DNA of 64,000 nt, taken from an uncultured SAR116 cluster alpha proteobacterium. Its GTDB lineage: Bacteria > Pseudomonadota > Alphaproteobacteria > Puniceispirillales > Marisalimonadaceae. The stretch lies in NCBI GenBank assembly GCA_902543145.1, contig CACBXG010000007.1, positions 35,417-99,416 of the forward strand, given 5' to 3'. The first letter of the stretch is position 1, and every line of letters starts with the position of its first letter. Below the pieces are notes generated by a model, which was not told the DNA's origin, did not search any database, and worked only from the letters and a program-made list of their open reading frames with translations. Shown here one piece after another: positions 49,285 through 52,599 of this stretch. Position numbers and translations under genes: made by a program.

Positions 49285-50700
49285 TTAAATTAGTTGATAC
49301 TGTTTTTCAAGATCTTGTAAAAAATGATCCCAATCCTCTAAGAATAACAACTTTTCATCATTACCTTGTCTTTCATATTCTTCACGTAAATTATCTAGCT
49401 CGTGATATGCTTTAGGAATTGTATTCCACTTTTCATTATCAGTGCTTAAAATTTGATTGGCAATAATTTTATGGATATTTTCATAATCAGATTTAGGAAG
49501 TACATGAGGCATCTCTTCATAAATTAATATATGAGCAAAATATTTATAACGTTCATCTTTAAACTGATTAGAAATATAAAATCTTTCTTCCCAATCAGCA
49601 TTATGAAAATCAACCATTTTGGATTTTTCGTGATTATCAGGGAAACCACCAGAATAAATACTTTCTTCTGGCATTAAATCAATCTGTGATTTAGTCATTT
49701 GTCTTGTCTCATGCTCTTCAAAAAGAATTGTTTGGATTTTATTTTTAAAATCAGAACTTTGTTTAATAATTTCTGCTCTGTGAGTTAAAACTTCCATCCC
49801 AATTGATTGATACACTGGGATTTTATCAATAACGCTTGAGTCTAATAAGATTGGATTTTTATTATTTTTAATTTCTTTAATTAATTTAGGTTTTTGTTTC
49901 ATTTTAATTTTTAAATCTTTAATAGACATATCAATATAATCAAGTGGATCATGCAATAAATCAAAACATTGAGGATAATTAAATTGATTCTTGCAAATAT
50001 AAGTAACAGCATGAACATTGAATTTACCAAAAAGATATTCATCCATACAAACAATATTATTTTGGATTAGAAAGTTATCTACATCTATTTTATTATTATT
50101 GTTAAGCCCAGCATTCCAAACTTTATTAGAATTTTTCTGTAAAATTTTAGCAATTTCAATAGTAGCATCTACATCACCCATAGCATCATGAGCATTATGA
50201 AAAATATTATTAAGTTCAGTTAAGACATCTAATTTAAAAACTTGATTACCCTTTTCATTAATTCCAACTTTTAAACAATCAGGAAAATAAAACTTAGATG
50301 CTCTAGTCATTCCTATGACATCAGCTCTTTTATTGCCATGAAATTGTGTTAAATAAGGTTCTAAAAGACTTTTAAAGAAAGTTTTTCTAATAAATTCTTC
50401 ATCAAAGTTTATTGAGTTATATCCAACAAAAATAGCTGGTGACCATTTCTTAAATGTTGTTTCTATTTTTTTTATTAAATCATAATGTGACAAATTTACA
50501 TTTTTTAGAATTTCTACGGATGTTTTATTTACAATCAATGCTTCAGGATAAGGCACTAAACCTTTTTTTAATCGACATCTCTCTTCAATTTTGTCAATTA
50601 CATTAAATTTATTGTCTGTAAGTATAGCTGCCACTTGAATAATTTGATCCCAGGTAGAATTTCTTCCTGTAGTTTCTAAATCATAGAAGACATAATTCAA
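49285..50700 (-). CDS. sbcB: Exodeoxyribonuclease I
   Basis: A 471-residue ExoI-like protein. The DnaQ-like nuclease domain has FYDLETTG near residue 5, VGYNSINFDEEFI near 94 and AHDAMGDVDATIEI near 180 (DEDDh set), followed by an SH3-like and a helical C-terminal domain; E. coli ExoI is 475 residues. It degrades ssDNA 3'-5'. Start is TTG (50700) with a GAGG 8 bases upstream. ExoI is common in gammaproteobacteria but unusual in alphaproteobacteria, where the addAB block normally occupies this spot. Confidence 0.9.
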   Translation of the reverse strand: MNYVFYDLETTGRNSTWDQIIQVAAILTDNKFNVIDKIEERCRLKKGLVPYPEALIVNKTSVEILKNVNLSHYDLIKKIETTFKKWSPAIFVGYNSINFDEEFIRKTFFKSLLEPYLTQFHGNKRADVIGMTRASKFYFPDCLKVGINEKGNQVFKLDVLTELNNIFHNAHDAMGDVDATIEIAKILQKNSNKVWNAGLNNNNKIDVDNFLIQNNIVCMDEYLFGKFNVHAVTYICKNQFNYPQCFDLLHDPLDYIDMSIKDLKIKMKQKPKLIKEIKNNKNPILLDSSVIDKIPVYQSIGMEVLTHRAEIIKQSSDFKNKIQTILFEEHETRQMTKSQIDLMPEESIYSGGFPDNHEKSKMVDFHNADWEERFYISNQFKDERYKYFAHILIYEEMPHVLPKSDYENIHKIIANQILSTDNEKWNTIPKAYHELDNLREEYERQGNDEKLLFLEDWDHFLQDLEKQYQLI

Positions 50701-50710
50701 ATTATTGACC

Positions 50711-51204
50711 TCACAAAGCTAAAAAGTTTCTTAAATTTTTAATTTTATTATCCCATTTTTTTGAACCAGATAAAGTAATTTTTCTATATTCAGATAAATT
50801 ACTTTTATTATTTTTTATAATCTCAATATTAAGGTTCAAGGGATCAAAGTGACTTAATTCAAATTTAAATTTTGGCCACTCAAGAAGAATAATTTTTTTT
50901 TTAAGTCCTCAAAAATACCAATCTCATCTACTTCTTCAAAACTATTAATCCTATAAAAATCACAGTGCCAGATTTCTTTTTCTTTTTGTAATGGATATGT
51001 TTGAACAATATTAAATGTAGGACTTATAACTTCATTAATTTTTGTTAAATAATTTATGATTGATTTACACAGAAAAGTTTTTCCAACACCTAAATCTCCA
51101 TTAAATGTAATAAGATCATTTAGTGAAAATAACTTTGCCAATTGTATACCAAAGTTATGCATTTCAGTTTTAGATTTAATCGTTATTTCTAGTAACAATT
51201 TCAT
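50711..51204 (-). CDS. tsaE: tRNA t6A ATPase TsaE, frame broken at an A10 tract
   Basis: TsaE drives the TsaBD complex that makes the t6A37 modification of ANN-decoding tRNAs. The Walker A GDLGVGKTFLCKSI (about residue 36) and HCDFYRI (about 80) motifs are present. The frame then hits a run of ten A at about 50888-50897; the track ORF ends there at 116 residues with an aberrant tail. Adding one A restores IILLEWP (the family's conserved I-E-W-P) and continues to a TGA at 50711, giving 164 residues of normal family architecture, and leaving a 10-base gap to sbcB. It is a real gene that needs slippage, or carries a one-base error or a mutation. Confidence 0.85.
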
Positions 51205-51207
51205 AAA

Positions 51208-52599
51208 TTAGTATCTATAATTTTCTGATTTAAAAGGTCCTTGAACTGGAACTCCAATATAATCCGCCTGTTCGTTTGAAAGCTTACTTAAAGTAGCGCC
51301 AACTTTATCAAGATGTAATTTAGCAACTTTTTCATCTAAATGTCTTGGCAGAGTATATACCTTATTTACATAATTTTCTGGCTTTTCCCATAACTCTATT
51401 TGTGCAAGAACTTGATTAGTAAAAGAGGCACTCATAACAAAACTAGGATGTCCAGTAGCACATCCCAGGTTTACCAATCTTCCTTTTGCTAAAACTATTA
51501 GACGTTTTCCATCTTGAAATTCAACCTCATCCACTTGAGGCTTAACCTCTGACCATTTCATATTTTGAAGTGACTCAACTTGAATTTCTGAATCAAAATG
51601 ACCAATGTTACATATAATTGCCCTATCTTTCATTTCCCTCATATGATCCACAGTAATAACATCTTTATTCCCAGTTGCTGTTACAAATATATCTCCCCTA
51701 GAACATGCCTCTTCCATTGAACACACTTCATATCCTTCCATTGCAGCTTGTAATGCACAAATAGGGTCAATTTCAGTTACAATCACTCTAGCTCCACCTT
51801 GACGAAGTGAAGCTGCAGATCCTTTTCCTACATCACCATAACCTGCAACAACAGCAACTTTACCAGATAACATCACGTCAGTGGCTCTTCTAATACCATC
51901 TACTAGAGATTCCCTGCATCCATAAAGATTATCAAATTTAGATTTTGTTACTGAATCATTCACATTGATTGCCGGAAAAGGAAGATCGCCTTTTTCTGCC
52001 ATTTGATATAATCTAAGAACCCCTGTAGTTGTTTCTTCAGTAACCCCTTTAATGCTATTTTTTACTTTTGTGAACCATCCTGGAGAACTTTCAAGTCTAG
52101 ATAAAATTTGTGATTTAAGAGCCTCTTCTTCTTCATTAGCAGGGTTAGGTAAAACTTGTTCACCACTTTCTGCTTTAGCGCCTAATATAATGTACAAAGT
52201 TGCATCACCACCATCATCTAGGATCATATTCGCAACTGTATCATCTGACCAAGTAAATATTTGATCTACATAATTCCAATATTCTTTTAAAGTTTCACCT
52301 TTTTTTGCAAAAACTGGAATATCTTGTTTTGCTATTGCCGCAGCTGCGTGATCTTGTGTTGAAAAAATATTACAACTAGCCCATCTAACGCTTGCCCCAA
52401 GACTTGTCAAGGTTTCTATGAGGACTGCTGTTTGAATCGTCATATGCAAACAGCCTGCAATCCTTGTACCTTTTAATGGTTTATCCTTTGAAAATAATTC
52501 TCTACATGCTATTAACCCTGGCATTTCAGTCTCAGCGATTGATATTTCTTTTCTTCCCCATTCAGCAAGTTTTATATCTGTGATTGAATAATCTTTCAT
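51208..52599 (-). CDS. ahcY: Adenosylhomocysteinase
   Basis: A 463-residue SAH hydrolase converting S-adenosylhomocysteine to homocysteine and adenosine. NAD loop [20 protein letters not shown] near residue 250, DDGGDATL near 127 and the C-terminal [14 protein letters not shown] with the NAD-binding Lys-Tyr end (KSENYRY) are diagnostic. It contains the roughly 40-residue insertion typical of many bacterial enzymes. It lies 78 bases after chvG; in many alphaproteobacteria hprK, an EIIA gene and ptsH sit between the two, but not here. Confidence 0.98.

Follow-up and report, generated by a model that had tools for sequence, protein, structure and literature searches.

The tsaE gene of a family of SAR116 bacteria is probably a conserved recoded gene, read by way of RNA polymerase slippage on a run of ten A that leaves the gene one base out of frame in the DNA. 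The frame has been kept broken in 25 of the 28 species compared and selection continues to act past the break, so a working protein is very probably made by slippage on the run, most likely during transcription. Although the t6A pathway is near-universal, one of its genes is kept out of frame in the DNA of most species of a marine genus and its sister genus, with the implication that functional TsaE depends on slippage. Routine gene callers would report a truncated TsaE for the whole group.

The tsaE locus and its frame break

The window, that is the whole stretch of 64,000 nucleotides that was analysed, belongs to a genome of 1.9 Mb that is 76% complete and has a G+C content of about 30%. Its minus strand carries the genes ahcY, tsaE, sbcB and trxA in this order, and the features around the break are as follows.

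51208..52599, minus strand: ahcY, the upstream gene, with its stop 3 bases ahead of the tsaE ATG
50854..51204, minus strand: zero-frame ORF of tsaE, 116 aa, matching Pfam PF02367 and NCBIfam TIGR00150
50893..50902, minus strand: A10 run (T10 on the plus strand), the putative shift site, identical in 25 of 28 species
50714..50893, minus strand: C-terminal part of TsaE in the -1 frame, 60 codons, IILLEWPKFKFEL...NFLAL, with the EWP motif, under purifying selection in that frame
50711..50713, minus strand: TGA of the full-length (shifted) tsaE frame, overlapping a GAGG Shine-Dalgarno-like stretch, with the sbcB start 10 bases on
49285..50700, minus strand: sbcB (exonuclease I), the downstream gene

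Together with its shifted frame tsaE occupies 51204-50711. The 116-aa ORF contains a complete N-terminal part, with Walker A (GDLGVGKT), SPTF and HCDFYR, followed by the A10 run and then by 12 out-of-frame residues to the stop. The run is composed of the third base of the Leu101 codon TTA and of three AAA codons. Reading past it in the -1 frame, which amounts to adding a single A to the message, gives KKKIILLEWPKFKFELSHFDPLNL... for 60 codons (50893-50714). Walker A, HxDxYR and EWP are all present in the sequence, but the EWP motif is encoded only in this -1 frame. The frame break at ten A that a preliminary description had reported is confirmed, as the ORF follows TsaE to profile position 95 of 128 (89.5 bits to Pfam from position 2, cut-off 26.6; 68.8 bits to TIGR00150, cut-off 60.1) and then runs off frame. 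Its proposal that one extra A restores TsaE also held, with the fused protein reaching 104 bits over positions 2-122. Note that the run had been placed at 50888-50897, 5 bases off its actual position, and that the restored codons, put at about 49, number 60 to the TGA at 50713-50711.

Tract length among relatives

We compared tract length in close relatives, as that description had advised, using the 28 species with tsaE in the same SAR116 family, from the genus AAA536-G10 plus a sister genus. Exactly A10 is found at the same tsaE codon in 25 of them, rather than A11, and the exceptions are three species with an in-frame gene, two with A11 (L057 and L076) and one with T plus A10 (L061). Neither A9 nor A12 occurs at this site among the 28. 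Past the run the -1 frame is open for 57-63 codons in all 25 A10 species, and the same run followed by the same open frame in 25 species is far beyond chance. The zero frame stops directly after the run in L074 and L075, both among the 25, and in the deep branch L073; L074 and L075 appear to represent the sister genus g285, an assignment made by matching frame lengths and identities.

A TsaE profile search of 61 genomes gave a congruent picture. Specifically, nearly all genus members end at about profile position 95, three are full-length, and tsaE is intact in the other families sampled; the genus members that lack a TsaE match are incomplete genomes. Among 23 low-scoring other Alphaproteobacteria, none was seen to have TsaE cut off comparably in mid-profile. 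Partial TsaE matches in G279, G364 and G439 appear to be fragments.

On a tree built from 2.4 kb around tsaE with the run itself left out (length 2.27 substitutions per site), A10 is basal and two state changes are needed, one restoring L057 alone and the other L061 and L076 together. Judged from this tree, A10 is the ancestral state and the frame was restored in two independent events. Changes in homopolymer length are among the commonest mutations, and the constancy of the tract despite this suggests that A10 itself is kept. Phase variation was considered and rejected, as it would give mixed tract lengths where 25 of 28 species have exactly A10.

The break is not an error and the gene is not lost

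The preliminary description had offered sequencing or assembly error, slippage, and true loss as options. Homopolymers are error-prone and most of the 25 sequences are single-cell Illumina assemblies, which gives the first of these some appeal. However, an identical length recurs in 25 species from several projects and methods, in single-cell genomes from at least two projects (JGI AAA536, SCGC AG-/AH-) and in three metagenome-assembled genomes alike, while A11 and T plus A10 were resolved in three genomes and several intact genes of the window's own assembly span in-frame A/T runs of 10 to 12, in-frame A10 to A12 among them. The Fram Strait genome set was sequenced with both Illumina and PacBio (PMC8254474). 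Error is therefore rejected.

True loss is likewise rejected, since the C-terminal half is present with its -1 frame under purifying selection and tsaB, tsaC and tsaD are kept. In 11 independent sister pairs this C-terminal part shows 135 amino-acid changes and 85 silent ones, a pN/pS of 0.369 (P=6e-12 against neutral expectation), and its dN/dS of 0.31-0.36 in the A10 genomes is near the 0.29 of the three restored genomes; such selection speaks against a plain pseudogene. No genome has a second tsaE copy above cut-off, the 99-100% complete ones included. A search of nine genomes gave homologs of TsaD/TsaB and TsaC in almost every one, with single absences in incomplete assemblies. Overall, we regard an artefact or a plain pseudogene as extremely improbable.

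Probable slippage on the A run

Slippage on A10 that yields a functional product is the best supported of the three options, and as a conserved state instead of an accident of one genome. Features of programmed slippage are seen in tsaE: a long A run lies at the frame transition, and inserting one nucleotide there fuses both frames into a conserved protein. When transcripts gain bases at A/T runs, it is mostly one base at a time (PMC5574713). Two findings favour RNA polymerase, the first of which is the make-up of the run. Codon 101 is TTA, CTA or ATA in the 25 species, with four first-base changes on the tree, while its third base, the silent tenth A, is invariant in all 25 and changed only in the restored L061; other Leu/Ile columns of tsaE show 3-7 third-base changes. 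The three Lys codons of the run are AAA everywhere, although elsewhere in the gene 21% of Lys codons are AAG.

The second finding comes from run lengths in the genes of two genomes (382 kb and 361 kb), compared with synonymous shuffling. Runs of A10 were two- to threefold rarer than in shuffled genes (7 vs 13.5 and 5 vs 13.9) and runs of A11 or longer were absent (0 vs 7.3 and 0 vs 6.3), while neither A9 nor A_AAA_AAA in shorter runs was avoided in the genes of either genome. An initial test confined to the 64-kb window gave no sign that A9-A10 are avoided; avoidance of A>=10 was clear with the 382 kb and the second genome. Among runs of at least 9, those that reach 10 were 8 of 18 outside ORFs vs 16 of 137 inside (Fisher P=0.0017), for a mechanical ORF set (at least 120 aa, longest frame). 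The drop at 10 A is thus confined to coding DNA and cannot be put down to replication alone. As a general observation on these two genomes, G000 and G021, their coding sequence sharply avoids A>=10 runs and has A7 to A9 over- or normally represented. The run length of tsaE is conserved and, on this indirect evidence, appears prone to slippage in this organism; avoidance of A>=10 in genes could have a cause other than polymerase slippage. Note also that among the transcription errors surveyed in the transcriptomes of E. coli and Buchnera none was detected that restored a frame (PMC5574713).

From these patterns we infer slippage, its transcriptional nature, its efficiency and the reason for its retention. 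Under this model the DNA would carry A10, one base short of an in-frame A11, and RNA polymerase would slip on the run, so that some share of the transcripts would gain an additional A. The A11 messages would give the full TsaE of about 164 aa, and the templated A10 messages a product of about 104-116 aa that lacks the EWP motif. The shifted state would be older than the divergence of genus g1 from g285 and would have been kept since, probably because it limits the output of full-length TsaE and possibly through coupling to sbcB.

Alternative mechanisms

The main rival is programmed -1 ribosomal frameshifting by tRNA-Lys(UUU) on A_AAA_AAA, with the mRNA unchanged, as in E. coli dnaX. Two overlapping A_AAA_AAA heptamers stand in the right phase in all 25 species, and on AAA-AAA-U the ribosomes of E. 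coli slip back to -1 and then read Ile, the same step as in tsaE (PMC9207662). The direction of the shift is also conserved, with all 25 orthologs needing +1 A and none shifted the other way, and by the GeneTack rule a uniform direction points to ribosomal and not transcriptional shifting (PMC3711429); an insertion bias of slippage explains this uniformity too. Against the ribosome, no conserved stem-loop lies near the tsaE run (consensus -1.8 kcal/mol), and the upstream GAGGA stretch is GAAGA in other clades, so a Shine-Dalgarno-like site is not conserved. Furthermore, the heptamer in runs of 9 or less is over-represented in genes (303 vs 235 and 289 vs 231), which makes it hardly harmful, and a heptamer at codons 102-104 has no need of the conserved tenth A. 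We consider ribosomal frameshifting on the whole unlikely, although it deserves more weight than a split protein in which reinitiation near the run makes the C-terminal part a separate chain. The latter is suggested by L074, where the first -1-frame codon is an ATG overlapping the TGA stop. However, no start codon near the run is common to the species, L060, L073 and L075 have no ATG, GTG or TTG anywhere in this part and others have them far downstream only, and the break falls inside the ATPase core, leaving a split protein very hard to credit.

A different question is why the shifted state persists. It may be a frozen accident, in which the loss of one base was neutral because A10 slippage supplies enough TsaE, so that the shifted state is unselected; TsaE would be made by the same mechanism, and this alternative concerns the reason for the shifted state only. 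The lineage is AT-rich, endosymbionts tolerate poly-A frame breaks (PMC5009743), the frame was restored twice on the tree, and in the window's genome a private poly-A break also affects selO. The three genomes with a restored frame indicate that the shifted state is not indispensable. Nevertheless, only two length changes are needed over 2.27 substitutions per site, where drift would mix lengths. We hold a frozen accident to be a serious possibility, though less likely than not.

Comparison with known recoded genes

The tsaE gene is a new gene for an already known kind of recoding; in the literature searched we found no earlier report of such a frameshift in tsaE or yjeE. One close parallel is dnaX of Thermus thermophilus, which undergoes transcriptional slippage on A9 (PMC1088944) and is likewise a cellular housekeeping gene with a coding-strand poly-A run and mixed products of one gene. 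The Thermus gene differs in that its DNA is in frame and slippage gives the shorter form, whereas the tsaE DNA is out of frame and slippage would be needed for full length. Some dnaX relatives have been described that have A10 and consist of two ORFs (PMC3711429). Shigella mxiE and spa13 resemble tsaE in that a non-templated base joins two ORFs into a functional protein (PMC1088944; PMC5009743), and in spa13 slippage also affects the downstream gene (PMC5009743), but these are plasmid secretion genes, mxiE with a T/U run, and not core tRNA-modification genes. Insect endosymbionts share with this clade AT-rich genomes and poly-A frame breaks; slippage corrects 12-50% of transcripts of some of their genes and the breaks are seen as tolerated damage (work cited in PMC5009743), whereas the tsaE run has been retained across 25 species, all planktonic bacteria. 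With the E. coli dnaX -1 ribosomal frameshift (A_AAA_AAG) tsaE shares a Lys-codon heptamer and the -1 direction, but it has a run of ten A and no conserved Shine-Dalgarno-like or hairpin stimulator. Poly-A frame breaks in AT-rich planktonic genomes may thus not always be error or decay.

Function, t6A and possible feedback

The EWP motif, which is encoded in the C-terminal part only, contains the residue equivalent to E. coli E108, and W109. E. coli TsaE with the E108A change no longer binds nucleotide or TsaBD and loses about 60% of its in vitro t6A activity, and a change of W109 stops ATPase activity and not in vitro t6A formation (PMC4330362). The short product is without EWP and is therefore unlikely to stand in for TsaE. 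The TGAGG that closes the long frame lies ten bases ahead of sbcB, and slippage may therefore also tune sbcB.

TsaE is needed for t6A37, and tRNA-Lys(UUU), which reads the three AAA codons of the run, is itself a t6A target, so feedback is possible. The A run would then be a sensor: as t6A falls, tRNA-Lys would slide to -1 more often and full-length TsaE would rise. With its native modifications tRNA-Lys slides up to 25-fold more slowly on AAA codons, a figure in which t6A was not isolated (PMC9207662), and yeast without t6A factors shows more frameshifts (PMC4717488). We regard this circuit as a long shot. If it is real, a tRNA-modification enzyme would be regulating its own production through a frameshift, in the manner of release factor 2. 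The link of the Lys AAA codons to t6A makes the circuit directly testable in a reporter. The species with a restored frame provide a natural control.

Other poly-A breaks and unusual starts

A poly-A break of another form is present in the genus g284 (L077, L079, L175, L176), where tsaE begins ATG ATT A12 TAA in two of three species, with the start codon one base out of frame. The third species has tsaE with an in-frame ATG, as does the genus g286. If the feedback circuit is real, the g284 break would be a convergent form of it; the rival reading for g284 is non-AUG initiation at an in-frame ATA. In a scan of about 0.8 Mb from two genomes for gene-splitting runs, tsaE was the sole clear conserved case, and most of the other runs resembled gene boundaries by eye.

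In the window's genome selO (ydiU) is split at an A10 (L118 around 997; G000:C34:3546-3555). The gene is intact in 15 relatives, and the sister genome G003 has an in-frame A9; the selO break is a private indel, an error or decay. A candidate split at A8 was seen in a CoA-transferase-subunit-like gene (G021 contig C2, around 37388; L166). In a further family of the order (f3; L012, L015, L016) tsaE has no ATG, GTG or TTG before the P-loop, and it may start at an ATA whose position is shared and which is preceded by purine-rich sequence. Finally, in most genus members the open frame that holds the TsaC/Sua5 domain (G000:C3:88188-88733) runs to about 599 codons, which is more than expected and possibly reflects a fusion.
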